A DNA stretch of 19,425 bases from Sulfurimonas sp. (GTDB lineage: Bacteria > Campylobacterota > Campylobacteria > Campylobacterales > Sulfurimonadaceae). The stretch is taken from positions 1-19,425 of the forward strand of contig JAUSKV010000046.1 of the NCBI GenBank assembly GCA_030646745.1. Reading direction: 5' to 3'. The position numbers and the translations under genes were made by a program. Below the pieces are notes generated by a model. The model did not search any database, was not told the origin of the DNA, and saw only the letters and a list, made by a program, of their open reading frames with translations. Shown here piece after piece: positions 1,498 through 18,537 of this stretch (position 1 is its first letter; the number at the start of each line of letters is the position of its first letter).

Positions 1498-2169
1498 TTA
1501 TACGACTTTGAGCCTATAACCCTCTCCATGGTGTGTTTCTATGGTGAGGGGAGCAAATTTTTCTCTTGCTCTGGAGATGAGTTGACGCATGCTTCCCTGC
1601 GATACAACCTCCTTATTCCATACATATTCAACTATCTCATAAGTGCTTACTACTTGATTTTTTCTTTCAACTAGCAGGGTCAAAAATAGATTTTCTTTTA
1701 TAGTTAATTTTATTTCTTTACCCTCACAGTAGAGGATTCTATTGCTCATGTCGTAGGTAATATTTTGGTTTAAATAAATTTTTTCTACTAGGTTGTTTTT
1801 ATATATGATGATGGCAAGTTTTATGATTTTTAGTAAGCTGTCGCTATTGTAAGGTTTGCTCATATAATAGAAGTGATTTGTTTCTGCAACATCTTCGAGT
1901 GTCTCGTCATCACCATGTGCGGTTAAGTAAATAACAGGTATGTTCTTTACTAAATTAAGCTTTTTTACTAGGTCGATGCCGTTTACATTCCTATCACCTA
2001 AATTTATATCGGTAATCATTAAATCAAAAGTGCCTTTTGAAATATATTTGAGTGCAATATCCGGAGAATGTGCAAGAAGTACTCTATACCCCGCATTCGT
2101 TAAATCATATTCCAATGCTTTTGTAGTAATAGAGTTATCCTCTATGACCAATATATTAAATTTAATCAA
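1498..2169 (-). CDS. OmpR/PhoB-family response regulator (receiver + winged helix)
   Basis: A 223-residue two-component transcription factor. The receiver domain (about 4-120) has the acidic pair Glu9/Asp10, phospho-acceptor Asp54 in MITDINLGD, Thr83 in YLTAH and Lys105 in MSKPY. A winged-helix domain (about 130-223) ends in the typical ISRAREKFAPLTIETHHGEGYRLKVV. The start is a TTG at 2169, supported by GAAGG six nt upstream and by the receiver fold beginning at once (FNILVIED); no ATG would keep an intact receiver. No cognate histidine kinase adjoins it. It is divergent from the lipoprotein gene, and the shared upstream region holds 11-bp-phased ATGTNAC boxes of the kind this family binds, so it is the best candidate regulator of that promoter and possibly of itself (inference). 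Confidence 0.9.
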   Translation of the reverse strand: MIKFNILVIEDNSITTKALEYDLTNAGYRVLLAHSPDIALKYISKGTFDLMITDINLGDRNVNGIDLVKKLNLVKNIPVIYLTAHGDDETLEDVAETNHFYYMSKPYNSDSLLKIIKLAIIIYKNNLVEKIYLNQNITYDMSNRILYCEGKEIKLTIKENLFLTLLVERKNQVVSTYEIVEYVWNKEVVSQGSMRQLISRAREKFAPLTIETHHGEGYRLKVV

Positions 2170-2225
2170 ATTAAACCTTCAATAATGAGTTATTTTTAAA
2201 CATTCACAACATATTATATTAAGCT

Positions 2226-2243
2226 TGTGACATTGATGTCACA
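2226..2243. promoter_or_regulatory. Perfect palindromic operator candidate TGTGAC-N6-GTCACA
   Basis: TGTGACATTGATGTCACA is a perfect palindrome (8-nt arms, 2-nt centre) 57 nt upstream of the response-regulator start. On the minus strand it reads as ATGTGAC (from 2244) and ATGTCAC (from 2233), two boxes 11 bp apart. The same TGTGAC-N6-GTCACA form recurs at 10822-10839 in front of the second operon. It could autoregulate the response regulator. A Crp/Fnr-type site is less likely because TGTGA and TCACA are 8 rather than 6 nt apart. Confidence 0.55.
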
Positions 2244-2353
2244 TGTTATTTATTTAATTCAAAAGATTTTAAATTTCACTAATCATCCAATGACACCAAT
2301 CATAAGTCGCTGTGTCAACTAATTGAAATAATAAATAACTTCTAAAGTATTAA

Positions 2354-2409
2354 ATGTAACAACTATGTAACAACTATGTTGCATCCATGTTACACCTTGA
2401 TGTTACATT
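2354..2409 (+). promoter_or_regulatory. Promoter with four 11-bp-phased ATGTNAC-type boxes and extended -10
   Basis: Boxes ATGTAAC (2354), ATGTAAC (2365), ATGTTGC (2376) and ATGTTAC (2387) start exactly 11 bp apart, one helical turn. Exactly 10 nt after the last box lies TACATT (2404-2409), preceded by TG one base earlier, an extended -10 in TGTTACATT. A transcript starting near 2416 would carry the Shine-Dalgarno at 2426-2430. This is pho-box-like geometry for a PhoB/OmpR-class activator that replaces the -35. The rest of 2170-2436 is AT-rich and I see no other gene in it; a TGACAC/GTGTCA pair at 2291-2317 is a weaker motif. Confidence 0.65.
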
Positions 2410-2436
2410 ACCGCATCTTAAAATTAAGGAAGTGTG

Positions 2437-4020
2437 ATGAAGACAAAAAGTAAAAAACACATTAGTTTAGTGCTTAGCACTTTTATACTCGGTTCTATGG
2501 GGCTAGTAGGTTGTAGTAGTGACAGCGGTGGAAGTTCAGAGCCGGCAGTAGTAGCAGAAAAACCGATAATAGCAAAAACCGTTTCCGGAATTGCTGTCGA
2601 TGGTTATATTAAATTAGCAACCGTAACTTTAAATGGTTTGAGTACTCAAACAAATGATATCGGTATATGGTCTATGTCTTATACCGGAAATAATAGCCAT
2701 GTTATATCCGTAAAAGGCGGAATCGATACAAGTACGGGTAAACCTTTTGAAGGTACTTTAAAAGCGGAACTTGGTGCAGATGGTGTAAATGTTGCTGTTA
2801 CTCCTTTATCTACATTAGTAAGTTCTTTAGTTAAAAATGGTGAAACAAAGGCAGCAGCAAGTGCAAAAATCGCTACACAATTAGGTATTTCTGAGGCTAC
2901 ACTTGCAGGAGATCCAATTGCTATTTTAGCAACAGGTACGACTGAGCAAAAGAGTGAAGCGGCACAAGCTATGAAGAGTATTTTGATAGTTCAAAAAGCA
3001 GCAGAGGCATTTGCAAAATCTATGGGTGATTCCGGCAGCGATAATTATGAGGCAACATTTGCCGGCATGTATGATGTAATTGCCGCACAACTCGGCAGTG
3101 CAGCAGCATCCGCAACGACTGTCTCAGCGTTTGACACAGTTATGGCAAATACTTCCGGTCTTACAACGGCACTACAGGCAAATTTAGCTTCAACAATAAC
3201 AGATCCACTTATGAATGATAGATTACAAGCTGCTTCAGGGAGTGTTGCAACTATTATTACCTCTGTACATAGTATTTCTAATGCTGATATTGCAAATAAT
3301 GCAGATTCGGCTGCAAAAGCTGTTGAGCAACTCACAACTCTCATTGAAAATCAGCTCGTTCTCATATCAAGTTCTACAACTCTAGCGGCAATTGGTACAG
3401 CCCAAACAAATGCTGCTGTAGTTACAGAGCAGAATGATATTGCTAATCTAGTGAATGACTATACTACAAATCCAAATTTAGGTGTAACAGATTCAGTTGT
3501 AACTCCTCCGGTCGTTGACCCGGTTGTTCCTCCGGTTGTTGACCCGGTTGTTCCTCCGGTTGTTGACCCGGTTGTTCCTCCGGTCGTTGACCCCGTTGTT
3601 CCTCCGGTTGTTGACCCCGTTGTTCCTCCTGTCGTTGTTCCTCCGGTTGTTGACCCGGTTGTAACTCCTCCAAGTTCTGGCGGCGGAGATTCTACGCCTG
3701 CAGTAACTACACAAACAGTCTCTGTTACAGCAACAGGAAGTAGCGATGCCGGCTCTCTTGCAAGTACATACAACTTCACAGCAGGAACTTACACTTACGC
3801 TATCGCAAACTTTAACGACGGCGATATTTTGGATTTCCCTGCCGGTAATAACCCTACCATGATAAATACAAGTTTTACGGATGGAAATCTTACGGTTCAA
3901 TGGGCAAATGACGGCAATGTAATTCTAGTGAACCTCTCAAATATTCCAACGGCAGACGATGCAAGCATACTTGGAACTACAAGTTTCAAAACAGCATTCG
4001 GAACGAGTTCAATCCAGTAG
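2437..4020 (+). CDS. Outer-membrane/surface lipoprotein with Pro-Val stalk, function unknown
   Basis: A 527-residue protein that I do not recognise as a named family. A lipoprotein signal peptide (MKTKSKKHISLVLSTFILGS...LVG) ends at lipobox Cys26, followed by a Ser/Gly linker without Asp at +2 (Ser27), which suggests outer-membrane sorting. Next come a beta segment with GIAVDGYIKLATVTLNG, a Ala-rich helical region to about 355, a (PPVVDPVV)n stalk (357-409), and a C-terminal beta domain (about 427-527) containing IANFNDGDILDF, reminiscent of the ITDF..GD motifs in RTX proteins. The ATG at 2437 is chosen over GTG 2434 because AAGGA (2426-2430) sits 6 nt before it. It precedes the giant surface protein on the same strand, so a role as its surface anchor or partner is plausible but inferred. 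Confidence 0.8.
   Translation: MKTKSKKHISLVLSTFILGSMGLVGCSSDSGGSSEPAVVAEKPIIAKTVSGIAVDGYIKLATVTLNGLSTQTNDIGIWSMSYTGNNSHVISVKGGIDTSTGKPFEGTLKAELGADGVNVAVTPLSTLVSSLVKNGETKAAASAKIATQLGISEATLAGDPIAILATGTTEQKSEAAQAMKSILIVQKAAEAFAKSMGDSGSDNYEATFAGMYDVIAAQLGSAAASATTVSAFDTVMANTSGLTTALQANLASTITDPLMNDRLQAASGSVATIITSVHSISNADIANNADSAAKAVEQLTTLIENQLVLISSSTTLAAIGTAQTNAAVVTEQNDIANLVNDYTTNPNLGVTDSVVTPPVVDPVVPPVVDPVVPPVVDPVVPPVVDPVVPPVVDPVVPPVVVPPVVDPVVTPPSSGGGDSTPAVTTQTVSVTATGSSDAGSLASTYNFTAGTYTYAIANFNDGDILDFPAGNNPTMINTSFTDGNLTVQWANDGNVILVNLSNIPTADDASILGTTSFKTAFGTSSIQ
3505..3663 (+). repeat. 24-bp in-frame tandem repeat encoding PPVVDPVV
   Basis: Five consecutive 24-nt units, a 15-nt truncated unit (PPVVV) and a sixth full unit encode an extended Pro-Val-Asp stalk in the lipoprotein. 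Units differ only at a few synonymous positions (GTC/GTT, CCG/CCC), so copy number probably varies by slippage while keeping frame. Confidence 0.9.
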
Positions 4021-4224: not shown

Positions 4225-7200
4225 ATGTCAAAGGTATTTTTAACAGCAGGTAAAACAGGATATGAAGTTGCAAATTTAGGTGATAGTTTTTATGGTTCTA
4301 CGGGAACAGAAAGCGTATCTATTAATTCAAATGTAACAGGCATAATAGTTGATTCAAATATGGAAAGCGTAACACTAGCCGGTGCTATGAGCACTTATTC
4401 ATTTCAGCAAGCAGGAAATGTTTTGAGTATTTATACAGCTGATGGCGTTACACTTGTTACAAGTATGGTAATCGGCGATAGCGGATCAACACTTATCATG
4501 AATAGTGTATCGTATCATGTAGCAGTAGAAGCAGACCAAATGATGAAAGTAGGAGATGAAAAAGTTGGAGTTCAGACACTTACAACGGGTGTAGATAACT
4601 TAACCGGAACAGTTGCAAATGACACATTTAACAGCACCTTCGGTAATGGCAATCCTGATACTTATACGCTTGAAACTGCCGATGTTCTCAATGGCGCTGC
4701 CGGCATAGACACTCTCAATGTCACGACTGCGGCTGAGGCTAGTACTCCAACTGACGCTCTATGGACTAATACAACTAATTTCGAAAAAATTGTGTTCAGT
4801 TCAACAGGTGTGGGTGCACAAGTTATTACTACAGGTGCTAATTTTGCGGCAGCATTTACGACAGGTGCGGAAGTGAGTGTAGAAACTTTTGACGGTGCGA
4901 TTACTCTTGACATGACAGGATATACGCAAGCAACAACAGTGAATACTACAACACACGGAGCATCATCTGCACAAACTATTACAACGGGTACTGGAGCGGC
5001 TTCTGTAAATGCAACTACTCTTCTGGCCGGCGCACAAACTATCTCGGGTGTGAACCTTAATACGGTACATGCAACAGTCCTTGGAGCAGGTGCTCAGACA
5101 ATTACAAGTATGAGCACATCAGCTGTAACGGTAGTTGCGGATGCTTTTAATGGTGCACAAACAATTACAACAGGTGTAGGTGCCGATAGTGTAACAACGA
5201 CTTCTGCTGCGGGAACAATCAATACAATTACGACTGGTGCAGGGAATGATACTATCGTTGCAAGTCTTGGTAGTGATACTATCACGGGCGGTGCCGGTGT
5301 AGATATTATGACAGGCGGTTCGGGTACTGACACATTTTTAATTGCAGCTCCTGATACCGGTATCACTCTAGCAACTGCAGATACTATTACTGACTTTACT
5401 GCCGGTGATGTGATTAATGCAACTTCAATTGTTGGAGGTGCAACTATAGTGGATGGTTCCGGTTTTGCTGATTTTGATGCTTTCGTTGCAGCAGCAAATG
5501 CTGTATATACTGTTAATACAGCTGCATATATCGCATATAATGCTGCAAATAGTGGCGATGCTTGGGTTCTTCTTGATCATGATAACAGTGATTCAGTCAC
5601 TACAGGCGATTCAATAGTTGTTCTCTCCGGTGTTAACACTGCTACTAAAATCGATGTTGTTGCTCCAATGATAACTTCTGCGGCGGTATCAGCAGACGGT
5701 CGAAGCATCGTAGTAACACACTCTGAAGCGTTAACAGGTACACCTGAAGCAGCGGATTACGGAGTAACTTTAAGTGCCGGCAGTACAAATATAACCGGTG
5801 CTACAATAGGTTCAGGTGTAGACTCAAACAAGGTTACTATAACTTTGTCTGACACTGTTACATCTACTATAAATGTAACAAATCTTATTTATACAGCTGA
5901 CCCTCTCCACCCTATTCACGATACTGCAACGAGTGCTAACAGTCATGCTACACAAACATTAAATGCAGTGACGAACAGTTCTGCAGTTGTAGCTTCCACT
6001 TTTACAACAGCTGTGGATAACTTAACCGGAACTGCTGCTGATGATATGTTTAATGGCACACATGGCGATGGAAATGCATCAAATACATTTCAAGCCGGAG
6101 ATGTCCTTAATGGTAGTACAGGTACAGACACTTTGCACATCACTACCGGAATTGAAGCTAGCTCACTCACTGATGTTCTATTTGCTAATAAACTCGGTTT
6201 TGAAAAAGCTGTGTTCAACTCAACAGGTGCCGGTGCACAAACTATCACTACAGGAACTAATTTTGAAGCAGCATTTGCGACAGGTGCAGATGTAAGTGTA
6301 GAAACTCTAGAAGGTGCGATTACTCTTACCATGGATTCTTATACACATGCTTCAACAATTACAACTTCAACAGTCGGTGATGGAGCGCAAACAATTTTAA
6401 CAGGTTCAGGCGCTACAACAGTGAATGCAACATCCCATGCAGCGGGTGCTCAAACTATTAACGGTGCAGGTCTTACTACGGTAAATGCAACTATTGTAGG
6501 TGCAGGTGTTCAGACAATCGGTACGACTGCAGGTCAAAATATTGTTACGGTAAATGCAACAATTCAAGGAGACGGTGCTCAGCAAATTACGAGTACTAGC
6601 ACATCTGCTGTTACAGTAGTTGCGAATGCTTTTAATGGTGTGCAGACGATTGTAACGGGTTCAGGAAATGACAGCGTAACAACAACATCTGCTTCAGGGA
6701 CGAACAACTCAATTGATACAAATGCAGGCGACGATGTTATCGTAGCAAGCGCAGGGAATGATACTATCACGGGTGGTTTAGGTAAAGATACTATGACTGG
6801 CGGCGAGGGTAGAGATATATTCGTATTTGCAGACGGTGATACAGGTACAACTATAGAAACTGCAGATATTATTACCGACTTTAATTCGGCGGATGATATT
6901 ATTCAAGCACCGGCAGGAGCTTTAATTATAGCAAATGGTGCTGCTTTAGATTTTACGACTTTCTCTGCTGCAGCGAATGCTGCATTCGCTGGCGGAGCTA
7001 CTAATGACGATAAATTTATCGCATATAATGCTGCAGGAACCGGTAGTGCTTGGGTTGCTATCGACCATGACAATGACGGTACATTAGATTCAGTAGCTGT
7101 TTTGAGTGGTGTGGATGTTGAAAGTAAATTAACAGTAACCACGCTTACAATTGGTACGGATACAATTACGGGAACTGCCGTTGCTGATACATTTAATGCT

Positions 7201-9801
7201 ACTTACGGAAATGCAAGCACACCAAAAACGATTCAAGCTGAAGATGTTCTCAATGGCGGTGCCGGCATAGACACTGTAAACATTGTTACAGGAGCTGAGG
7301 CTAGCACACCGCTTGACGGCTTATGGACGAACAAAACAAATTTTGAAAAAGTTGTGTTCAGCTCAACAGGCGATGGTGCACAAACTATTGTTACGGGTAC
7401 TGATTTTCTAGCAGCATTTGCAACAAGTGCAGATGTAAGTGTAGAGACGCAAGCAGGTGCAATTAATGTTGACATGGGTTCTTATACACATGCTTCAGCA
7501 ATCACAACATCATCTATCGGTGCGGGTGTGCATACTATTGTAACAGGTTCAGGTGCTACAACTGTAAATGCAACAACCCATGCGGCAGGTGCTCAGACTA
7601 TTAACGGTGCCGGTCTTACGACGGTAAACGCAACCATTGTTGGTGCAGGTGTTCAAACAATCGGTACAACTACAGGTGGAAATATTGTTACAGTCAATGC
7701 AACAATCCAAGGAGACGGTGCACAACAGATTACAAGTACAAGCGCATCCAATGTTACTATAGTTGCAAATGCACATAATGGTGTGCAGACGATTGTAACG
7801 GCTGGAGGGAATGATAGTGTAACAACAACATCTGCTTCTGGAGTGAACAATACAATTACTACTTATGCAGGAATTGATACTATCGTAGCAGGTGCTGGTA
7901 ACGATACTATCACGGCTGGAACAGGTAAAGATACTATGACAGGCGGTGCGGGTAGAGATATATTTGTATTTGCAACAGGCGATACGGGTACAACTTTAAC
8001 AACTGCAGATATTATTACTGACTTTAGTTCTGAAGATATTATTCAAGCACCGGCGGGATCTTTAATTATAACAAACGGTTCTGCTTTGGCAGATTTTGCG
8101 GCTTTCTCTACAGCTGCTAATACCGCATTTGGTGGTGGAGCTACTATGGACGATAAATATGTCGCATACAATGCTGCCGGTACTGGGGATGCTTGGGTTG
8201 CTATTGACCATGATAATGATGGTACATTAGATTCTGTGGCTGTTTTGAGTGGTGTAAACCTTGCAAGTAAAATTACAGATGTTGCTGCTCCGGCAATACT
8301 TTCAGCGGAGGTAGCAGCAGATGGTAAAAGCATTGTAGTAACACACTCTGAAGTGTTAACAGGAACACCTGAAGCAGCTGATTACGAAGTAACTTTAAGT
8401 GGTGGTTCTACAACTTCAGTAACCGGTGCTACACTAGGAACGGGTGCAGATGCAAATAAAATTACACTGACTTTATCTAATGTTGTTCTATCTACTTTAA
8501 ATGTAACAGATCTTGTTTATACATCAAGTGCCGGAGTTGCAGACTCTATCAAAGATGCATCGATTCTCTCTAACAAAGCGACTACGCAAACATTGGCTTC
8601 AGTGACTAACAATTCTGCGAATACAACTTACACACTTACTCTGGACACGGATACTTTGACTGGAAGTGCTGCTGCTGACACATTTGCCGGTACTTTTGGT
8701 GTTGGTGTTGCAACAACTTATACACTTGGAGTTGCTGATGTTCTTGATGGCGGTGCTGGCATAGACACTCTGAATGTCACTACTCTCCTAGCTCAGGCGA
8801 ATTCACCGACTGACGCTCTGTGGGCTAATAAACTAGGTTTTGAAAAAATTGTTTTCAACTCACTAGGCGATGGCGCACAAACTGTGATTACAGATGCTAA
8901 TTTTGCATTAGCATTCGCGGATGGCGCAGATTTTAATGTGCAAACTCTTTTAGGTGCGATTACTGTTACCATGACTGGATATTTGGATACTGCAACAATC
9001 AATACAACAACAATCGGCACTGGTGCACACACTATTACAACCGGAACAGGAGTGGCTTCTGTAAATGCAACATCTCTTGCAGCAGGTTCACAAACTATCA
9101 ACGGTGTCGGTCTTACTACCGTAGATGCAACAATTAATGGAGCAGGTGATCAAACAATCGGTACTACTACGGGTGGAAATATTGTTACGGTAAATGCAAC
9201 AATCCTCGGAGCAGGTAATCAGACAATTACAAGTACAAGTGCATCAGCTGTAACAGTAGTTGCGGATGCCTTTGCCGGTGATCAGACGATTATAACCGGT
9301 GCAGGAAATGACAGTGTAACAACTACATCTGCTGCCGGAACGACCAATGCAATTACTACAAATGCAGGGAATGATACTATCGTCGCAAGTTTGGGTGATG
9401 ATACTATCATTGGCGGTGCCGGTGTTGACACTATGACAGGCGGTTTAGGTGCAGATACATTTGATTTTGGAGCTTCTGCTACAGGTATCACTTTAGAAAC
9501 TGCGGATACAATTACCGACTTTACAACAGCGGATGATGTTATTACTACATTATTGTCTGAAGGAGTTGTAACTATAGTTGATGGTGTTGGATTCACTTTT
9601 AATACTTTCCTTGCAGCTGCTGCTGCCGCATTCGTTGACGGAGGAGAAGTCGCATATATCGCATACAATGCTGCGGGTACAGGCAATGCTTGGGTTATTA
9701 ATGATGCAGATACTACTGATTCAGTAACTGCACTCGATACACTCATTATTCTAACAGGTGTGAATCTTGTTGGTGAAATTGCTATCGGCGATATCGCTTA
9801 A
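4225..9801 (+). CDS. Giant RTX/S-layer-like repeat protein with SwmB-like domains, probably type I secreted
   Basis: An 1858-residue, Thr/Ala/Gly-rich acidic protein with no cysteine and no N-terminal signal peptide, as expected for RTX or S-layer proteins exported by a type I system through a C-terminal signal. After an N-terminal beta region (1-117) come four large modules: A from about 118, B from 592, C from 973, D from 1471. Each starts with D(N/T)(L/I)TG..A.DTF.., runs through beta-helix-like GAQTI(T/V)TG coils, then RTX-like nonapeptides (GGAGVDIMTGG; about 340-371, 835-866, 1216-1247, 1715-1746), and ends in an ADTITDF..GD / AYNAAGTG.AW..DHDNDG segment resembling the bluetail surface-protein domain. 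SwmB-like domains (about 478-586 and 1352-1462; AVSADGRSIVVTHSEALTG) follow A and C. Start supported by AAGGA (4213-4217). No type I exporter is in the window. Function is probably cell-surface layer, adhesion or motility. Confidence 0.85.
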   Translation: MSKVFLTAGKTGYEVANLGDSFYGSTGTESVSINSNVTGIIVDSNMESVTLAGAMSTYSFQQAGNVLSIYTADGVTLVTSMVIGDSGSTLIMNSVSYHVAVEADQMMKVGDEKVGVQTLTTGVDNLTGTVANDTFNSTFGNGNPDTYTLETADVLNGAAGIDTLNVTTAAEASTPTDALWTNTTNFEKIVFSSTGVGAQVITTGANFAAAFTTGAEVSVETFDGAITLDMTGYTQATTVNTTTHGASSAQTITTGTGAASVNATTLLAGAQTISGVNLNTVHATVLGAGAQTITSMSTSAVTVVADAFNGAQTITTGVGADSVTTTSAAGTINTITTGAGNDTIVASLGSDTITGGAGVDIMTGGSGTDTFLIAAPDTGITLATADTITDFTAGDVINATSIVGGATIVDGSGFADFDAFVAAANAVYTVNTAAYIAYNAANSGDAWVLLDHDNSDSVTTGDSIVVLSGVNTATKIDVVAPMITSAAVSADGRSIVVTHSEALTGTPEAADYGVTLSAGSTNITGATIGSGVDSNKVTITLSDTVTSTINVTNLIYTADPLHPIHDTATSANSHATQTLNAVTNSSAVVASTFTTAVDNLTGTAADDMFNGTHGDGNASNTFQAGDVLNGSTGTDTLHITTGIEASSLTDVLFANKLGFEKAVFNSTGAGAQTITTGTNFEAAFATGADVSVETLEGAITLTMDSYTHASTITTSTVGDGAQTILTGSGATTVNATSHAAGAQTINGAGLTTVNATIVGAGVQTIGTTAGQNIVTVNATIQGDGAQQITSTSTSAVTVVANAFNGVQTIVTGSGNDSVTTTSASGTNNSIDTNAGDDVIVASAGNDTITGGLGKDTMTGGEGRDIFVFADGDTGTTIETADIITDFNSADDIIQAPAGALIIANGAALDFTTFSAAANAAFAGGATNDDKFIAYNAAGTGSAWVAIDHDNDGTLDSVAVLSGVDVESKLTVTTLTIGTDTITGTAVADTFNATYGNASTPKTIQAEDVLNGGAGIDTVNIVTGAEASTPLDGLWTNKTNFEKVVFSSTGDGAQTIVTGTDFLAAFATSADVSVETQAGAINVDMGSYTHASAITTSSIGAGVHTIVTGSGATTVNATTHAAGAQTINGAGLTTVNATIVGAGVQTIGTTTGGNIVTVNATIQGDGAQQITSTSASNVTIVANAHNGVQTIVTAGGNDSVTTTSASGVNNTITTYAGIDTIVAGAGNDTITAGTGKDTMTGGAGRDIFVFATGDTGTTLTTADIITDFSSEDIIQAPAGSLIITNGSALADFAAFSTAANTAFGGGATMDDKYVAYNAAGTGDAWVAIDHDNDGTLDSVAVLSGVNLASKITDVAAPAILSAEVAADGKSIVVTHSEVLTGTPEAADYEVTLSGGSTTSVTGATLGTGADANKITLTLSNVVLSTLNVTDLVYTSSAGVADSIKDASILSNKATTQTLASVTNNSANTTYTLTLDTDTLTGSAAADTFAGTFGVGVATTYTLGVADVLDGGAGIDTLNVTTLLAQANSPTDALWANKLGFEKIVFNSLGDGAQTVITDANFALAFADGADFNVQTLLGAITVTMTGYLDTATINTTTIGTGAHTITTGTGVASVNATSLAAGSQTINGVGLTTVDATINGAGDQTIGTTTGGNIVTVNATILGAGNQTITSTSASAVTVVADAFAGDQTIITGAGNDSVTTTSAAGTTNAITTNAGNDTIVASLGDDTIIGGAGVDTMTGGLGADTFDFGASATGITLETADTITDFTTADDVITTLLSEGVVTIVDGVGFTFNTFLAAAAAAFVDGGEVAYIAYNAAGTGNAWVINDADTTDSVTALDTLIILTGVNLVGEIAIGDIA

Positions 9802-9992: not shown

Positions 9993-10601
9993 TCATTTTT
10001 TTTGTAAATCATCCATGGCTATTTTTACTTGATTTCTGCCATGTTCTTTTACATCATACAAAGCTTTATCTGCTCTGCCTATTGCAATATCTAAGGTGTC
10101 ATTTTCATGTATTTTTGTTATTCCGAATGAAGCTGTTTTGCTGCCTACATGCTCAAATATTTTTTCTTCTATCTGCTTTCTCACTCTTTGTGTAATTTCA
10201 TAAGCATCTTCTATGGAAGTTTTTGGAAGAAGTATTAAAAACTCTTCTCCTCCCCAACGACCTATGACATCTGTGTCTCTAAATACTTTTTTAAGCTCCA
10301 AAGAGATAGTCTGAAGAAAAATATCGCCTTCATTATGTCCATAAACATCATTCACTAATTTGAAATTGTCTATATCCATCATGACGATACAAAGCTCTGT
10401 TTTATAGCGATTCGATTGTCTTTTTTCATATACAAATGTCTCTTCAAACTTATATCGGTTATATAAACCCGTCAGCTTATCGGTAGAAGATAAAATTTCA
10501 AGAGCTTTTTTCTCTTCAATGAGCCGTGCATTTGTACTCTCAAGCGCTTTGATTCGAAATCTTAGTTTGTTAGACTTTTTCAAAAATGAAAATCTAGACA
10601 T
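9993..10601 (-). CDS. Diguanylate cyclase (GGDEF domain)
   Basis: A 202-residue soluble protein that would make cyclic di-GMP from two GTP. A basic N-terminal coiled coil (about 10-38) leads through STDKLTGLYNR into a GGDEF domain. Metal-binding Asp76 lies in MMDIDNFK, the nucleotide-binding segment is NDVYGHNEGD, and the active-site loop is an intact WGGEEF (GGEEF 117-121). RDTD at 108-111, five residues before it, is a canonical inhibitory I-site, so product inhibition is expected. No sensor domain or membrane segment is present; the short coiled coil may mediate dimerisation or partner binding. AGAGG lies 9 nt before the ATG, inside the end of the 48-aa small gene upstream, which ends 4 nt before this start. 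It is divergent from a c-di-GMP phosphodiesterase operon. Confidence 0.93.
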   Translation of the reverse strand: MSRFSFLKKSNKLRFRIKALESTNARLIEEKKALEILSSTDKLTGLYNRYKFEETFVYEKRQSNRYKTELCIVMMDIDNFKLVNDVYGHNEGDIFLQTISLELKKVFRDTDVIGRWGGEEFLILLPKTSIEDAYEITQRVRKQIEEKIFEHVGSKTASFGITKIHENDTLDIAIGRADKALYDVKEHGRNQVKIAMDDLQKK

Positions 10602-10605
10602 AATA

Positions 10606-10752
10606 TTACACCTCTATAAAGGCGAAAACTTCGACATTTTGATGCAACTCTTTTAGTTTTTGTACAGCTTCTTTAATAGTGTACGCCCTAATATCCGCTA
10701 CTGCCATTTGATTTACTAGAAATGATTTATATCTGATTCTAAAAGTTCCCAT
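10606..10752 (-). CDS. Small protein (48 aa) upstream of the diguanylate cyclase, unrecognised
   Basis: A short frame on the minus strand reading MGTFRIRYKSFLVNQMAVAD followed by 28 more residues ending FAFIEV. It has AAAGG (plus positions 10761-10765) 8 nt before its ATG, and it ends 4 nt before the diguanylate cyclase start, with the cyclase Shine-Dalgarno inside its last codons, so the two look like one transcript. The sequence is mixed charged/hydrophobic with a likely central helix (TIKEAVQKLKELHQNV) flanked by possible strands; there is no signal peptide or obvious membrane segment. I do not recognise the family. Position suggests a regulator or partner of the cyclase, but this is inference, and a spurious frame remains possible. 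Confidence 0.6.
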   Translation of the reverse strand: MGTFRIRYKSFLVNQMAVADIRAYTIKEAVQKLKELHQNVEVFAFIEV

Positions 10753-10794
10753 TTGCATATCCTTTGATTGTATTGCACAAAGTTTACAAAAAAC

Positions 10795-10854
10795 ATGTCA
10801 CGCATATGTGATATTTTTAAATGTGACGGCTATGTCACAACCTAATGTTACATT
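10795..10854 (+). promoter_or_regulatory. Second promoter with phased ATGTNAC-type boxes and the same extended -10
   Basis: Boxes ATGTCAC (10795), ATGTGAT (10806), ATGTGAC (10821) and ATGTCAC (10832) fall into two pairs, each pair 11 bp apart and the pairs separated by 15. Exactly 10 nt after the last box is TACATT (10849-10854) in TGTTACATT, as in the 2354-2409 promoter, and the following bases (ATTAC, then a T-rich stretch and TTAAA) also match. The third and fourth boxes form TGTGAC-N6-GTCACA, like 2226-2243. Only 42 nt separate the first box from the divergent small gene, so minus-strand control is also possible. Confidence 0.65.
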
Positions 10855-10880
10855 ACTGTATTTTAAATCGGGGATACAAA

Positions 10881-11294
10881 ATGGCAGGGAAGCTAATCTT
10901 AATTGTAGATGATGATGAGATAACTTTGGAGATGATAGGTTATACATTGGAAGATGAGGGCTACAAGGTTATTAAATCTACAAATAGCAGGGATGCAATT
11001 GAACTTGCAGAAAAAAATTCACTCTTTCTTAATGCAGTACTTATGGATCTTGTCATGCCGCAAAATGACGGTTTTATGGCAATAAGAACCATGAAGGGTC
11101 GAAGAAGTTTAAGGCTTATTCCAATCATGGCTTTAACTGCATCCAATGATAAAGAGTCGGTTTTAAAAGCTTTTAATGCCGGAGCAGATGATTATTTGAC
11201 GAAACCTTTTGATCCTGAGGAGCTACTATTCAGAGTAAAAGCACTTTGCAAGATTACGGATTTTGTACGACGATGGCAAGCTTTTGCCAAATAA
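10881..11294 (+). CDS. Single-domain CheY-like response regulator
   Basis: A stand-alone receiver domain of 137 residues with acidic cluster DDD at 10-12, phospho-acceptor Asp56 in VLMDLVMP, Thr86 in ALTAS and Lys108 in LTKPF. No output domain is present; the C-terminal tail (about 120-137) is a basic helix. It probably acts as a phosphotransfer intermediate or through protein contacts, perhaps with the HPt-containing hybrid kinase two genes downstream. The ATG at 10881 is chosen because GGGGA (10870-10874) sits 6 nt before it and the receiver fold starts immediately; the in-frame ATG at 10845 lies inside the promoter motif and would add 12 residues not typical of a receiver. It is the first gene of an apparent five-gene operon, 10 nt before the next. 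Confidence 0.92.
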   Translation: MAGKLILIVDDDEITLEMIGYTLEDEGYKVIKSTNSRDAIELAEKNSLFLNAVLMDLVMPQNDGFMAIRTMKGRRSLRLIPIMALTASNDKESVLKAFNAGADDYLTKPFDPEELLFRVKALCKITDFVRRWQAFAK

Positions 11295-11304
11295 AGGAGA
11301 CTAA

Positions 11305-12459
11305 ATGATACATTTTGATTCTATAGACCGAGCTACCATTCTTGTGGTAGATGATACGCTTGATAATCTCACTCTCATGTCGGGTTTACTAAAAGATTTA
11401 TATAGAGTTAAAGTTGCAAATAGCGGCGAAAAAGCACTCAGATATCTTGAGAGTGACTCCATGCCCGATTTGATACTCTTAGATATTATGATGCCCGGAC
11501 TCTCCGGCTATGATGTTATTAAAGAGCTAAAAGCAAACCACAAAACAGAAGATATTCCGGTTATTTTTTTAACCGCGATGAGTTCGATGGATGATGAAAA
11601 AAAAGGTCTTGAGATGGGAGCCGTGGACTATATCACAAAGCCTATCTCTTCACCGATTGTTATGGCAAGGGTGAAAGTTCATATACAAAATAAGGCGGCA
11701 GCCGATTTTTTAAAAGACCAAAACAGTTATCTTGAATCTGAAATACAAAAGCGTACCCGTGAAATATCCGCAATTCAAGATGTAACTATTTTAGCTATGG
11801 CTTCTCTAGCCGAGACAAGAGATTCCGATACAGGTAATCACATCAGACGAACACAGTTTTATGTCGTAGCCCTCGCACAAAGACTCAAAAATCATCCTCG
11901 TTTTGCCCAATTTTTGAGCGAAAAAATGATAAATACACTCTTTAAGTCCGCCCCCTTGCATGACATAGGAAAGGTTGGTATTCCCGACCATATACTTCTT
12001 AAACCCGGAAAATTCACACCTGAGGAGTTTGAAATTATGAAAACACATACGACGCTTGGACGCGATGCTATTTCGCATGCAGAAAAACAGCTTGGAATGG
12101 AAGTTGAGTTTCTTCAGATTGCTAAAGAGATGGCTTTTTCTCATCAAGAAAAATGGGATGGCAGCGGCTATCCAACAGGAATAAGCGGGGATGCTATACC
12201 GATTTCCGCTAGGCTTATGGCAGTTGCGGATGTGTATGACGCACTCATTAGCCGTAGAATTTACAAAGAGGGAATGCCACATGAAAAAGCTGTTTCTATC
12301 ATCGTTGAAGGCAAAAGTACGCATTTTGATTCGGATGTTGTGGATGCTTTTTTAGAGTTGCAAGAGGAGTTTCGTGCCATTGCCGCAAGATTTTGTGATA
12401 GCGATGAAGACATGGCTCTCAAAGCGCAACAGATGGCAAGATTGGAGGTGCACTCATGA
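11305..12459 (+). CDS. Response regulator with HD-GYP domain (cyclic di-GMP phosphodiesterase)
   Basis: A 384-residue RpfG-type protein: an N-terminal receiver (about 11-127; phospho-acceptor Asp60 in LLDIMMP, Thr90, Lys112), a short coiled-coil linker (about 135-160), and an HD-GYP domain (about 160-370) expected to hydrolyse cyclic di-GMP. The metal-binding HD is His219-Asp220 in HDIGKVGIP, and the GYP motif is at 288-290 in WDGSGYPTG, followed by SARLMAVADVYDAL, all typical of active enzymes. AAGGAG (11294-11299) precedes the ATG by 5 nt. Its TGA overlaps the kinase ATG (ATGA at 12456), which strongly suggests the downstream hybrid kinase controls its phosphorylation. It opposes the divergently encoded diguanylate cyclase. 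Confidence 0.94.
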   Translation: MIHFDSIDRATILVVDDTLDNLTLMSGLLKDLYRVKVANSGEKALRYLESDSMPDLILLDIMMPGLSGYDVIKELKANHKTEDIPVIFLTAMSSMDDEKKGLEMGAVDYITKPISSPIVMARVKVHIQNKAAADFLKDQNSYLESEIQKRTREISAIQDVTILAMASLAETRDSDTGNHIRRTQFYVVALAQRLKNHPRFAQFLSEKMINTLFKSAPLHDIGKVGIPDHILLKPGKFTPEEFEIMKTHTTLGRDAISHAEKQLGMEVEFLQIAKEMAFSHQEKWDGSGYPTGISGDAIPISARLMAVADVYDALISRRIYKEGMPHEKAVSIIVEGKSTHFDSDVVDAFLELQEEFRAIAARFCDSDEDMALKAQQMARLEVHS

Positions 12460-15400
12460 AAAAATTTCTCTCACTCTTAGAGGGTATGAAGCTTAGTTTT
12501 AGGCTGCTATTTGGATTTGCTGCTGTTTTACTTATTACACTTTTTATAGGGCTTTATGGTCTCTACGCCTTTTCTATATTAAATGAAAATATAAAATCAA
12601 TCTATGAAAAAGGGTTTCTTGGAGTAAGCCATTTAAAAGAAGCGAACATAAAACTTGTCCATATATCTAGGAATGTGCGTCAAATGGCACTCGCTATAGA
12701 TTCCGTTTCTCAAGAAAAAGCAAAAAAGAAGATTGAACAAAATATTAAAGAGCTCTCAATTGAACTAGAAAAAGGAAAAGTGAGTGTCTATGGTGAAGAG
12801 AATATGGAACGATTACAAGATTTTAATTTCCTCTATGTTGAGTATATAGAAAATATTCATACTCTTGTATCTATGATTGATAAACGTAAAGATAGTGAGG
12901 ATATATCGGTAGAAACATTTTTGAGTAGTGACTATTTTTTAGAAATAATTGAAAAAACAGAGCAAAAAATTGAAGAGATTTCTTTAGCAAAAGAAGAAGC
13001 AGCGAAAAATTCATATATCAAGGGAGAACTTATTTATGAGCAGAGTGAAAAAGTATTTTTTTACCTCTTTTTTCTGGCACTCCTCGGCGGTACGCTTTTC
13101 TCTTGGCTGAACATTCTCTCCATTCGTCGTCCTTTAGAAAATTTACGAGAATCTATTGAACAGCTAGCAAAAGGAAATCTTGATATTGTAATACCTTATA
13201 CACACTTTACAAATGATGTAGGGAGCATTGCAAATTCCATAGTGGTGCTTCAAGAGGGAGCAAAAAGTAGAGAGTTGCAGCGCCTCATCAAAGAGAAGTT
13301 AGCTGAGTTTGATAAAACTCTACTGGGTATTACCTCTTTTGCAGAATTTGGAAATACCTTGCTAGCGAAGATGTCCCAATATATGGGCTTGGTTTACGGT
13401 GCCTTGTACATTGCAGATAAAAATCAAACACAACTCCTAAGAGAAGGAAGTTATGCCTGTGATAACGACATCCATGCAACAGAATTTACTTTTGGGCAGG
13501 GCTTAGTCGGGCAAGTAGCTCTGAGCAAAAAAACAATTATCCTCAAACTCGATGCTGATTCCGCAGTCGGAATTACAACAGGAATTGGAAAGTTAAACAT
13601 TCATACACTGCTCCTAGCACCGGTAGTCAATAACAAAAAGGTATCGGGAGTTTTAGAAATTGGCTCATTTGATGCGTTTAATTTGGAGCAGATAGCTTTT
13701 TTAGAGGTGCTTTTACCGGCAGTAGCTATAAAATTAAGAATTTTAGAGGGCAATTTAGAAACGAAAGAGCTGCTTGAGCAAACACAAATGCAATCCATGG
13801 AACTTGCGGCATCGCAACATCAACTTTTAGTGCGTCGTGATGAGTTGGAAAGAAATAACAGCCTCCTAGCAGAACAGGCTTCGCAAATGTCACAACAAGC
13901 AGAAGAGTTAGCCCAACAGCAAGAGTCACTCCTAGAACAACAAGAAATTTTATCTCAAACAGAGGAGCGAACCCGTCTTATTTTAGGCTCGGTAAATGAA
14001 GGTATTTTGGGCTTAGATGCAGAGGGAAAAACAACCTTTGTAAATGAAGCGACCATAGAGATGTTAGGATATTCTGAGTCGGAGCTCTTTGATGCCGACA
14101 TGCACACGCTCATGCATCACTCTTATGAGGATGGTTCTGTTTATCCAAAAGAGAATTCTCCTATCTATTTGACATCCGTGGATGGCGTGGGTCGTAAAAT
14201 AGACAATGAAGTGTTGTGGCGTAAAGATGGCTCATCCTTTCCCGTGGAGTACGAAACTACTCCGGTTCTTAAAAATGAGCGACTTGTTGGAACGGTTATA
14301 GTTTTTAGAGATATAACCAAACGCAGGGAGATAGAAGATGAAATCAACAGAGCTAAAAAAACTGCCGAAGATGCTACAAAGGCAAAGTCGGACTTTTTAG
14401 CAAATATGAGTCACGAAATACGAACGCCCATGAATGCTATCATCGGCATGTCGCATCTAGCACTTCAAACAGACTTAAATGCGAAGCAGAGAAACTACAT
14501 TGAAAAAGTCGATAATGCTTCCAGAAGTCTGCTCGGTATCATCAACGATATTCTTGATTTCTCTAAAATAGAAGCCGGAAAAATGCAGTTTGAAAATGTT
14601 GATTTCTACATTGATGATGTCATGGAACATTTAGCAGATTTGTCTGTAATAAAAGCACAGGACAAGGGTCTTGAGCTCCTTTTTGATGTTGGAATGGATG
14701 TACCGACGGGACTTGTCGGCGATGCCTTGCGTTTGGGGCAAGTCATTATAAATCTTGTAAATAATGCTATAAAATTTACGGAAAAGGGTGAAATTACCGT
14801 TTGCATACACAAAATTGCGGAGGAGGGTGAGGGTGTGCGACTTCTTTTTGAAATCAAAGATACCGGAATCGGCTTAACGCATGAGCAACAAAATAAACTC
14901 TTTAGTGCCTTTTCTCAAGCAGATGCTTCGACTACCCGTAAATACGGAGGAACAGGTTTGGGGCTTACTGTGAGTAAAAAACTTGTAGAAATCATGCAAG
15001 GGGAGATAGGAGTAGAGAGTGAATTAGGAAAAGGGAGTAATTTTCACTTCACGGCAAAATTCGGTGTTCAAAAGGAACAAAGAAACTTCTCAATGAGTCC
15101 GGAGGATGTAAAAAATTTGCGTATTTTAGTGGTGGATGATAATGCAAGTGCCAGAGAGATACTCCAAACTATGCTTACATCGCTCAAACTTGATGTAACC
15201 GCAGTAAGCAGTGGGCATGAGGCAATCGGAGAGTTAGAACAAGCACAACTAGAATATAAACCTTATGAGCTTGTTCTGATGGACTGGATGATGCCGGGTA
15301 TGGATGGTTTAGAGACTATAAAACGCATTCAAGCAGATATAAAGCTCGCTAAAACACCCACCTTTATCATGGTAACAGCGTATAGTCGTGAAGAGTTGCT

Positions 15401-16541
15401 TCAAAATAGTGTTGGCATTGCTATTGAAGGTATTTTAGTCAAACCGGTAACTCCTTCGACTCTACTCGACAGTATTCTCAATGCACTTGGCAAGGAAGTT
15501 GCACAAAGTACAAGAAGACATGAAAAAGAGTCTAATTACAGAGAAGCAGAAAAAATTCTAAAAGGTGTCTATTTGCTGCTGGTTGAAGATAATCTTGTCA
15601 ATCAAGAGTTAGCCATTGAACTCTTAGAAAATGCAGGGATAAAAGTGGATGTTGCAAATAACGGTGCCGAAGCCTTAGAAAAAGTACAAATTGCCGAATA
15701 TGACGGTGTTTTAATGGATTGTCAGATGCCCGTTATGGATGGGTTTGAGTCCACGCGTCTTATTCGTAAAATTCCGAGACTCTCCAATCTGCCAATTCTT
15801 GCCATGACAGCAAATGCAATGGCAGGAGACAAAGAAAAATGTATCGAATGCGGCATGAATGACCATATCGCTAAACCGATTGATGTTGCACATCTGTTTC
15901 TCACAATGGCAGAGTGGATAAAACCAAAGCGTGTAAGCACACATGAGACACTTCAAATAGAAGGAATGGATATTAAAAGTGCATTAGGGCGTGTTGCGGG
16001 AAATGAAAAGCTTCTTCGTAAACTTCTTTTTCGCTTTTTACAAACACAATCGGATGTGATGGTTCGTATCCATAGTGCAATGGAGGGTCATGACATGCAA
16101 ACGGCAATAAGAGAAGCACACACTATCAAAGGATTAGCCGGAAATATCGGTGCCGATTTGTTGTTTCAACATGCAGAGGAGCTTGAGAGAGTGCTCAAAG
16201 AGGGAGAATCGGATACTGTTAAGAGTTGTTTAGAGTTGACTCAAAATGAACTCTCAAATATTATACAGAAAATTTCAGTTGCTATCAAAGAACCGATACA
16301 AACCCTAACTCCTCCAACCGACATAGACATGGAAGCCTTAGTAGATGCCTTAAAAAAGCTCGATAAACTTTTAGAAGAACTCGATGCCGAAGCAGCAACA
16401 GCTGAAGAGGAACTTTTTGATAGTTTGGTTGCCCTCGGACATGGTATTGCTATCAAAAAAATCAAAAAAGCAATTGACAAGTTTGAATTTGAGGATGCAA
16501 GAGAGTTGCTTGCTCAAATATTAGCAAAACTTTCTACATGA
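12456..16541 (+). CDS. Hybrid sensor histidine kinase (HAMP-GAF-PAS-HisKA-HATPase-REC-REC-HPt)
   Basis: A 1361-residue membrane phosphorelay kinase. TM1 (about 14-37) and TM2 (about 200-222) flank a helical periplasmic sensor, followed by HAMP (about 222-275), GAF (284-430), a Gln-rich coiled coil (435-505) and PAS (505-630). HisKA has phospho-acceptor His653 in [14 protein letters not shown]. The HATPase has its N box near 762 (NLVNNAIKF), DTGIGL and GGTGLGL. Receiver 1 has Asp943 in LMDWMMP and receiver 2 has Asp1088 in LMDCQMP. HPt has His1222 in AHTIKG. A further Glu-rich helical tail (about 1285-1361) follows. It is translationally coupled (ATGA) to the HD-GYP regulator, its likely output. 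The domain order resembles BarA/TorS-class kinases; the signal sensed is unknown. Confidence 0.94.
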
Positions 16542-16563: not shown

Positions 16564-18537
16564 ATGTCCAATTTAATAATGATGTGTTTTGCAGTTTTAC
16601 TGTTAATGAGTGGGTGTGGGGATGAAAAGAGTAGCCAGAGTGATGCTATTTTGGATTCAAATATAATTAGCCACCCAGATGCGAATGCAACAATCTATTC
16701 GCATGATGATGAACTTAAATCAATTGGCAGACATGCAGCGCCACCTATGTATATCTCTATTGAAGATCCCGCTCCAAATGCTCCGGTTACGGTAGAAATT
16801 ACAGGTGTCTTAGGAAGCAGTATGTATGTAACCGTAGCAGGTTCGGGTTGCGGCACTCTACAAAACACGGTGGGAGTCTCTCCTCTGACTCTAGCGGGGA
16901 ATGCAGGTTCAAGCGGTTATTGCATTATAAAAGCTACTTATGATGATGGCAAGAGAGTCTCAGGTCGTTTTGTCGTAGCTGCACATGAGCCAAATTTACC
17001 GCCGATTGACTCTGAACATGGCACTTGGGTTATAGGTGAAAAACCACAAGTGTCAACGCTCTTAGATAGTGATGCAAAACGATTGGTAGGGCTTCCTGTT
17101 ATATCAAAAATTGAGGGTTCTCAAGAGCTAATCAACGGAGGCTCTTCAGAATTTACCGTTTATAGCTCTAGCGGTTCTAACATTGCTGCTATTTTGGTAC
17201 AAATTGGCTCTTATGACGGTTATTACGCTATTCCTGTTTATTCATCCTCAAAAAATGGAGAGTTTAAACTTCTCTTTGCCTCCGATTTGTTTACGAAACT
17301 CAGAGCCGTTCGTGCTGCTGTTGATTTAAATATTACTATTACTGTAATTGATGATTTAAATCAGGTAAGTGAGGCTTTTACTATTTTGTTATCTGCAAAT
17401 GAAATAGGTTTTCGTGCAGTCGGAAGTGCGGCAAAAGTTTCCGGTAAAGTCAGTTATGAGGATTTTCCGGTTTCAAGAATCGGTTTAGGCAGTAGCAGAA
17501 TGTTGCCGGTTCGCTTTGCTGAGGTTCAAGTTGTGAGGAATTTTGATAATGCAACTCTAGCCATAGGCGCTACGGACGCTTCGGGTAGATATGAGATAAG
17601 CTTTCAAAATGATGACACTGAGCATTCGGGCTACTATGTTTTAGTCTATGCAAGACAGGATAGTATTATATTAAAACAAGAAGTGAGAGATTTTTCAAGA
17701 AATGTTTATTCTTTTAAATCTGGGAGCGTGATTGATGAAATTCAAACACCGCAAAAAAGTGACATGGATATTGCCATAGAAAAAAGTAATAATGCCGGAG
17801 CTATGAATATTTTTGATGTCGGAGTGAGCTGTAGTGATTACGCACGCTTACATGGCGGAAGAGTTCCAGACAAACTAACTTTCTTTTGGCAGGTAAACGG
17901 TATCAGTGGTTCATACTTTTCTCCGCTAAACAGAGAGATTGTTATACTTGGGAAGCTATCCGACTCCGATGAGTATGATGATTTGGTTATAGGGCATGAG
18001 TATGGGCACTTTGTCATGAGCACTTATAGTAAAAGTAGCTCTCCCGGTGGAAGTCACACTTTGGCACCATCGGTTCCGGCATTAGCATGGTCAGAGGGTT
18101 GGGCAACCTATTTTTCAGCAGCGGCATTAAATAAAAGTTATTATGTAGATACCACGGCAACGGGTGTAGGTGCATATTATAGTATAGAGAGTTTGCCTAG
18201 CAGTATAACGCTTGGCAATATTGACGGTAAGCTTGAAGGGAGTTTGAGTGAGGCGGTAGTGAGTTCCGTTTTATGGGATTTATATGACAGCACAAATGAA
18301 ACATTTGATACTTTGAGCGATAAATCAATTGCAATTTGGAAAATATTTACAACTTATCTCAATGGGGTCAATTTTAGAGATAGAGGAGAGTCAGGTATTG
18401 ATTTGGTTGATTTTTTAGATGGCTGGTTTTGCCTAGGATATGGGGATAAAGGCTCGGATGGGGTTGGTATGGTTGGAAATGTTTGGTCAATGCATGCTTT
18501 GAGTTATGATTTTAAAGAGTTAGACGCATGCAAATAA
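16564..18537 (+). CDS. Putative lipoprotein zinc metalloprotease (HEYGH, gluzincin-like)
   Basis: A 657-residue exported lipoprotein: the signal peptide MSNLIMMCFAVLLLMSG ends at lipobox Cys18, with Gly19 at +2. A beta domain (about 55-135) holds two Cys, then a carboxypeptidase-regulatory-like beta sandwich (about 290-365; KVSGKVSYEDF ... GATDASGRYEISF). The C-terminal half has HEYGH (His478, Glu479, His482) and, 28 residues on, Glu511 in WSEGWATYF, a spacing and motif compatible with a zinc gluzincin, plus a later VLWDLYDS as seen in M4/M36-like enzymes. The family is not assigned. AAGGAG (16552-16557) precedes the start by 6 nt; it is 22 nt after the kinase gene, in the same operon. A role in processing the giant surface protein or its partner is plausible but unproven. 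Confidence 0.8.
   Translation: MSNLIMMCFAVLLLMSGCGDEKSSQSDAILDSNIISHPDANATIYSHDDELKSIGRHAAPPMYISIEDPAPNAPVTVEITGVLGSSMYVTVAGSGCGTLQNTVGVSPLTLAGNAGSSGYCIIKATYDDGKRVSGRFVVAAHEPNLPPIDSEHGTWVIGEKPQVSTLLDSDAKRLVGLPVISKIEGSQELINGGSSEFTVYSSSGSNIAAILVQIGSYDGYYAIPVYSSSKNGEFKLLFASDLFTKLRAVRAAVDLNITITVIDDLNQVSEAFTILLSANEIGFRAVGSAAKVSGKVSYEDFPVSRIGLGSSRMLPVRFAEVQVVRNFDNATLAIGATDASGRYEISFQNDDTEHSGYYVLVYARQDSIILKQEVRDFSRNVYSFKSGSVIDEIQTPQKSDMDIAIEKSNNAGAMNIFDVGVSCSDYARLHGGRVPDKLTFFWQVNGISGSYFSPLNREIVILGKLSDSDEYDDLVIGHEYGHFVMSTYSKSSSPGGSHTLAPSVPALAWSEGWATYFSAAALNKSYYVDTTATGVGAYYSIESLPSSITLGNIDGKLEGSLSEAVVSSVLWDLYDSTNETFDTLSDKSIAIWKIFTTYLNGVNFRDRGESGIDLVDFLDGWFCLGYGDKGSDGVGMVGNVWSMHALSYDFKELDACK

Follow-up and report, generated by a model that had tools for sequence, protein, structure and literature searches.

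OmpR/PhoB-type response regulators bind tandem direct repeats. Here we analyse a promoter layout of this appearance that occurs twice in a stretch of DNA of 19,425 nucleotides from Sulfurimonas sp. (assembly GCA_030646745.1, contig JAUSKV010000046.1, our contig C381; hereafter the window, meaning the whole stretch), once before a gene for a surface lipoprotein-like protein and once before an operon of phosphorelay and cyclic di-GMP (c-di-GMP) signalling genes, and we propose that one regulator probably switches the surface-protein and the signalling genes together. According to excerpts of the cited papers, several described operators have the same 11-bp step. The PHO box of E. coli consists of two 11-nt direct repeat units (PMC4415409), with a TGTCA core, and its regulator PhoB is a winged-helix response regulator that contacts sigma and is autoregulated (PMC4415409, PMC6194859). 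In Sulfurospirillum, PceP (RR2) is associated with CTATA repeats that proceed in 11-bp steps and overlap the -35, its own promoter being among the targets (PMC7755780), and the KdpE operator is formed by two 6-bp direct repeats 5 bp apart, that is, with an 11-bp period (PMC3264566).

The locus is like the PhoB system, as excerpted, in its winged-helix response regulator and its 11-nt repeat units, and the TGTCA core of the PHO box resembles the half-site ATGTCACA; it is unlike that system in that its boxes are of the type ATGTNACA and not CTGTCAT, and in that its presumed targets are surface and c-di-GMP genes. With PceP it has in common the phylum, the 11-bp steps and the regulator's own promoter as a presumed target, whereas PceP serves tetrachloroethene respiration and the consensus reported in the excerpt (CTATW-N17-CTATW) is not found in the ATGTNACA boxes. 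KdpE, as described in the part of its source available, shares the 11-bp period but has half-sites TTTATA/TTTACA and acts on potassium transport. The system would appear to be of a known kind, an OmpR/PhoB-type regulator with its operator, and apparently not a member of the Pho, PceP or CRP/FNR regulons. In a literature search of partial coverage, no such regulon turned up for Sulfurimonas.

Two matching promoters in the window

The promoters and the genes that follow them are these:
2354..2394, plus strand: four ATGTNACA boxes at 11-bp steps, 5' of the lipoprotein gene
2401..2409, plus strand: presumed extended -10 of the lipoprotein promoter, TGTTACATT
2434..4020, plus strand: surface lipoprotein-like gene without a Pfam match; ATG 2437 fits GGAAG better than GTG 2434
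4225..9801, plus strand: 1,858-aa protein with RTX repeats (Pfam HemolysinCabind 1.3e-30), presumed to be in the same unit as the lipoprotein
10821..10839, plus strand: operator pair of the operon promoter, ATGTGACG-N3-ATGTCACA, 11-bp period, N3 being GCT
10846..10854, plus strand: presumed extended -10 of the operon promoter, TGTTACATT, with TACATT at 10849-10854
10881..11294, plus strand: single-domain response regulator (REC), first operon gene (Pfam Response_reg 2.5e-26)
11305..12459, plus strand: REC plus HD-type domain, HD-GYP-like, presumed c-di-GMP phosphodiesterase (Pfam HD_5 2.8e-31, Response_reg 2.2e-25)
12456..16541, plus strand: hybrid sensor histidine kinase (4HB, HAMP, GAF, PAS, HisKA, HATPase, 2 REC, Hpt)

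Boxes start at 2354, 2365, 2376, 2387 and 2400 in the lipoprotein copy and at 10795, 10806, 10821, 10832 and 10845 in the operon copy, the two copies being 8,445 bp apart. In both, the last pair has an 11-bp spacing and is followed by 9 nt and then by TACATT, and the TGTTACATT is identical. The full layouts are ATGTTGCA-TCC-ATGTTACA-CCTTGATGT-TACATT (2376-2409, with the two further boxes upstream at 2354 and 2365) for the lipoprotein gene and ATGTGACG-GCT-ATGTCACA-ACCTAATGT-TACATT (10821-10854) for the operon, and 35 of the 50 bases of 2376-2425 are identical to those of 10821-10870. The box positions, the spacing and the identical TGTTACATT bear out the preliminary description of this DNA, which had reported a repeated promoter architecture; its 10-nt gap is the same spacing counted from a 7-nt box, or 9 nt by the fuller box. 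The sameness extends over the last pair, the gap and the -10, and not to the upstream parts, where the steps are 11-11-11 in the lipoprotein copy and 11-15-11 in the operon copy. The window contains 17 exact ATGTNACA boxes, 12 of them in the 1,566 bases that are intergenic by the set of coding sequences used.

A scan of 10602-10880 for promoters of the form TTGACA-N16..18-TATAAT gave 0 matches (shuffles 1.8). The warning that the motif can mislead start calling also proved sound: the caller of open reading frames (ORFs) picks 10845, whereas 10881 is preceded by GGGGAT (10870-10875) and yields MAGKLILIVDDDE, which aligns with VGKLILIVDDED of a relative.

One claim had to be replaced. The four boxes of 10795-10854 had been taken as a single operon site, but the upstream pair (10795-10813) fits better a promoter that reads in the opposite direction, so that the intergenic region 10758-10881 probably holds two divergent promoters:
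10781..10814, minus strand: presumed promoter of the unit formed by the small ORF and the GGDEF gene, divergent from the operon promoter, ATATCACA-N3-GCGTGACA-N9-TAAACT, 3 mismatches
10606..10758, minus strand: 50-aa ORF between the divergent promoter and the GGDEF gene, lacking in the related genome G034
9993..10601, minus strand: diguanylate cyclase (Pfam GGDEF 4.6e-43)

On the minus strand the layout reads ATATCACA-TAT-GCGTGACA-TGTTTTTTG-TAAACT, followed by the 50-aa ORF and the GGDEF gene. The revision comes from comparison with two relatives. In G034 the divergent-pair sequence stands directly before the GGDEF gene and is separated from the operon site by 36 additional bases; in G026 the GGDEF gene is present too, with a conserved leader and a different pair that is flanked on either side, at 9 nt, by a -10-like hexamer. 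The case for this promoter rests on conservation because its boxes match with only 2-3 mismatches.

The candidate regulator and its sites

We searched for the composite of two ATGTNACA-type boxes at an 11-bp period, 9 nt and a -10 hexamer, with a cut-off of one mismatch, in the assembly that contains the window (2.15 Mb in 390 contigs, from an uncultured Sulfurimonas-like lineage); as this assembly is 74% complete, with 26% absent, site copies may be missing from the counts. The composite was found at four places (control 0), namely the lipoprotein promoter, the operon promoter, the promoter of a regulator gene at 1498-2169 and that of a second regulator copy on contig C117, and it is therefore rare and not of random frequency in the genome-wide search that the preliminary description had proposed. 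As regards the Pho regulon, no phosphate gene was among the ORFs seen at these four places (two regulator genes, lipoprotein, operon) in the 74% of the genome available. The string ATGTNACANNNNNATGTTACATTA has two perfect matches, exactly the two promoters, and four at 3 mismatches (control 1), and the box pair ATGTNACANNNATGTNACA has nine at one mismatch or fewer (control 0), eight of them in the window or at C117:3412; the ninth, on contig C27, was set aside as it lies inside an ORF. When 3 mismatches are allowed, the count for the composite rises to 27, with 13 in the control; weight was therefore given to close matches only, and those at 2-3 mismatches were discarded as stand-alone evidence, being too common.

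The regulator and its promoter lie next to the lipoprotein sites:
1498..2169, minus strand: response regulator of the OmpR/PhoB type (Pfam Response_reg 1.7e-20, Trans_reg_C 1.6e-13), proposed to act on all the promoters described
2211..2244, minus strand: regulator promoter, ATGTGACATCAATGTCACA, with a candidate -10 either 7 nt (TATAAT) or 9 nt (TAATAT) further on

Its product carries the receiver and winged-helix (Trans_reg_C) domains that the OmpR/PhoB type requires. The preliminary description had left the regulator unnamed, and the composite before this adjacent gene probably identifies it. The second copy (G000:C117:3497-4018; L035, L041) shares 81.6% identity over 174 aa and has a HisKA_2 kinase gene beside it in divergent orientation; it may be a true paralogue or come from a co-binned strain. 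A HisKA_2 kinase also adjoins the regulator in G034, and ORFs resembling it by sequence, without a domain scan, do so in G020, G026, G132 and G135; within the window there is none beside the regulator. This kinase is the likely phosphate donor of the regulator, which it would presumably phosphorylate in response to a signal.

The explanation we favour, with a probability of roughly 0.7, is that the regulator encoded at 1498-2169 has the repeated motif as its operator and would co-activate all these units. Two monomers, in places four, would sit head-to-tail on ATGTNACA half-sites that an 11-bp period places on the same face of the helix, and the presumed targets do carry at least two half-sites with that period. 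The bound pair would stand where a -35 would lie, 9 nt before a weak extended -10 (TGTTACATT), and would probably recruit RNA polymerase through sigma, as PhoB does. Activation in place of a -35, as opposed to repression, is the simplest reading, given the weak -10 at 9 nt from the pair and the lack of any TTGACA/TATAAT promoter in the region scanned. Transcripts of the lipoprotein and RTX genes, of the REC/HD-GYP/hybrid-kinase operon, of the divergent GGDEF gene and of the regulator's own gene would then rise together, with a presumed effect on adhesion and biofilm formation. For uncultured sulfur-oxidising Campylobacterota this would provide a testable regulon, with one named regulator and defined operator bases, joining a presumed secreted RTX surface protein to the making and breaking of c-di-GMP.

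A built-in brake is possible, though we consider it doubtful. An exact ATGTNACA box at 10845-10852 overlaps the operon -10, and such a third box (0-1 mismatch) was found in 8 of the 9 lipoprotein, operon and DUF4214 promoters scripted (8/10 with a G132 promoter read by eye) and in 0/5 regulator promoters, counts that are not independent because the promoters are partly related by descent. In the L038 lipoprotein promoter the third box has 4 mismatches; the table of -10 candidates excluded this row and that of a gene remnant (L037). The same regulator might thereby activate at low and block at high concentration. Adhesin and c-di-GMP enzymes would then be made in a pulse, and the regulator's own promoter, having no third box, would stay on. 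The phoB promoter has auto-repression half-sites overlapping its -10 and also an upstream activation site (PMC6194859, in excerpt); it is alike in having a half-site over the -10 of a promoter with an upstream site, and differs in being the regulator's own promoter with two antisense half-sites, whereas here one box is seen at target promoters and the regulator's promoter is without it.

Related genomes and competing explanations

The genus set comprised 135 genomes, of which five were called as having the regulator (E <=1e-40) and 130 as lacking it. At one mismatch or fewer the composite gave 36 matches in 27 genomes (control 0), with 11 matches and 4/5 genomes positive where the regulator is present, and 25 matches and 23/130 positive where it is not (Fisher p 0.0057). 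Two extra genomes outside this set, G135 and G136 (Sulfuricurvum), were searched once the idea had formed, with a slightly looser pattern in which the leading box bases were free. G135 gave four matches (control 0), three of them at the regulator and lipoprotein promoters and one (on C90) in an overlap of ORFs. G136, whose regulator is 60% identical, also gave four (control 0), one of them on C159; of the other three, one precedes a PAS-GGDEF gene and two are readings of a single site that stands upstream of a cluster of genes, on the contig that carries the regulator.

The layout is kept before both gene sets in relatives, the check that the preliminary description had suggested. G020, G135 and G034 have kept the lipoprotein promoter, which is degenerate in G026; in G034 (L037 16600-16900) only a short remnant of the gene itself is left, behind an intact promoter, and a further site precedes a gene for a DUF4214 protein. 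In G135 four boxes at 11-bp steps stand before the lipoprotein gene, and the lipoprotein and RTX genes are followed by an ABC transporter resembling those of type I secretion, in keeping with a surface protein that is secreted. The G132 lipoprotein promoter, read by eye and post hoc (ACACCACA-ACT-CTGCCACA-N9-TACGCT, 5 pair mismatches), is a diverged version at best. The operon pair is kept with 0 mismatches in G034 and with 3 in G026 (1/200 mononucleotide shuffles as good). Relatives of the HD-GYP gene have the pair upstream in 3/3 genomes with the regulator, whereas in 8/8 genomes that lack it the roughly 900 bp upstream contain no site better than 4-7 mismatches, and 5.5-100% of shuffles are as good. 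The regulator gene lies directly beside the operon in G034 and near the lipoprotein gene in G020 and G135, and its promoters have pairs with 0 (window, C117, G020), 1 (G135) and 2 (G034) mismatches. The claim that the surface-protein genes and the signalling operon form one regulon is thus supported by the likeness of the two sites, their near-uniqueness in the genome and the conservation at both gene sets that such a regulon predicts.

Several observations weigh against the regulator of 1498-2169 as activator of all these units. The composite was derived from the window itself, whose genome is among the four positive ones with the regulator (3/4 without it), and 25 of the 36 genus matches lie in genomes without the regulator, so that the layout must also serve related regulators, with boxes that differ to some extent (ATTTAACAC...ATGTAACA is one example). 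G026 and G132 lack a pair within 2 mismatches immediately upstream of the regulator gene, and in G132, where the regulator is 64% identical, there is none anywhere in the 20-kb locus. The pair stands 9 nt from the -10 at the lipoprotein, operon and GGDEF promoters and 7 or 9 nt at the five regulator promoters, in which the better -10 (TATAAT or TATACT) sits at 7 nt; a constant 9-nt spacing was not upheld there. The GGDEF promoters match with 3, 3 and 2 mismatches. The eight site-less HD-GYP genes are 61-68% identical and may not be orthologues, the closest Sulfuricurvum relative (G136, 73%) has no site at 4 mismatches or fewer, which counts against a conserved operon target, and G135 has no HD-GYP relative at E 1e-60. 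The orientation of the half-sites is also hard to determine because each box is nearly self-complementary.

This last point bears on the idea that the boxes are inverted repeats (TGTGACA-N4-TGTCACA) for a dimeric regulator, for example of the CRP/FNR type and perhaps a promoter-blocking repressor, which we regard as unlikely. The core TGTNACA is self-complementary, 7-mer profiles fit inverted (r 0.98) as well as direct repeats (r 0.95), and a single pair in G026 has -10-like hexamers on both flanks. The arrays and the outer flank nonetheless favour direct repeats: four boxes follow each other at 11-bp steps with repeated spacers in the window and in G135, and the downstream box is followed by T in 4/17 profile sites, whereas inverting the leading A (13/17) predicts mostly T; the 17 sites were picked for having boxes, which biases their box frequencies. 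A CRP/FNR operator is TGTGA-N6-TCACA, whereas the half-sites here would be TGTGA-N8-TCACA; a CRP class II site is centred near -41.5, whereas the centre here would be near -31 if TACATT is the -10; and no CRP/FNR gene was seen among the window ORFs scanned. The involvement of a different OmpR/PhoB-family protein, such as a genus-wide paralogue to which the neighbouring regulator is merely linked, seems to us if anything slightly less probable still. Similar pairs do occur in the 23 genomes that lack an orthologue of the neighbour, but the best sites of the own genome precede the window regulator and its paralogue, and matches per genome are far denser with the regulator than without (11 in 5 versus 25 in 130).

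Descent of one promoter from the other by copying, in which case likeness would say nothing of present co-regulation, is highly improbable. It would account for a likeness that extends beyond the -10 (ATTACYGYATYTTAAA) into bases that a regulator has no need to recognise, but boxes and -10 are conserved in several species while their surroundings diverge, and the regulator and GGDEF promoters have the pair in common and not the downstream sequence. Chance similarity in AT-rich intergenic DNA we consider negligible. Loose versions are common, at least 123 of the 135 genus genomes having the composite at 2 mismatches; at one mismatch the control stays at 0 in all 135, and the best ungapped match of the two regions, 23, was reached by 0 of 2,000 dinucleotide shuffle pairs (mean 8.3, largest 15). 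We rejected chance on these shuffles and controls, which agree, together with near-uniqueness in the own genome, with the earlier judgement that coincidence is unlikely.

Recurrent layouts and other observations

A PhoB-like operator layout recurs in the genus with varying box sequences, and this recurrence could help to find the targets of other response regulators. The ten single-pair matches in genomes without the regulator fall in nine genomes (loci inspected: L025, L027), and by eye a G108 site adjoins another receiver/winged-helix-like, response-regulator-like gene. A separate promoter-like string, ATTTTACA-N3-ATTTTACA-N9-TTAnACT, has the 11-bp layout with a different box and recurs in many genus genomes (among the matches listed, G012:C1:170303, G014:C1:1967981 and G016:C3:175308); it is probably another OmpR-type operator of the genus.

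The G135 record (L086, CAMCYD010000024.1) is titled Helicobacter pylori PMSS1, yet its regulator and locus resemble Sulfurimonas, and the label looks wrong. Between a MoCF_biosynth gene and the regulator, the window contains a long inverted repeat at 1360-1452 (cttgcaaaactcaaaac ... gttttgagttttgcaag), perhaps a bidirectional terminator. Downstream of the hybrid kinase lies a further gene, which may belong to the operon and whose product is possibly a secreted metallopeptidase:
16564..18537, plus strand: lipoprotein-like protein with an HEYGH motif (motif by eye; no Pfam match)
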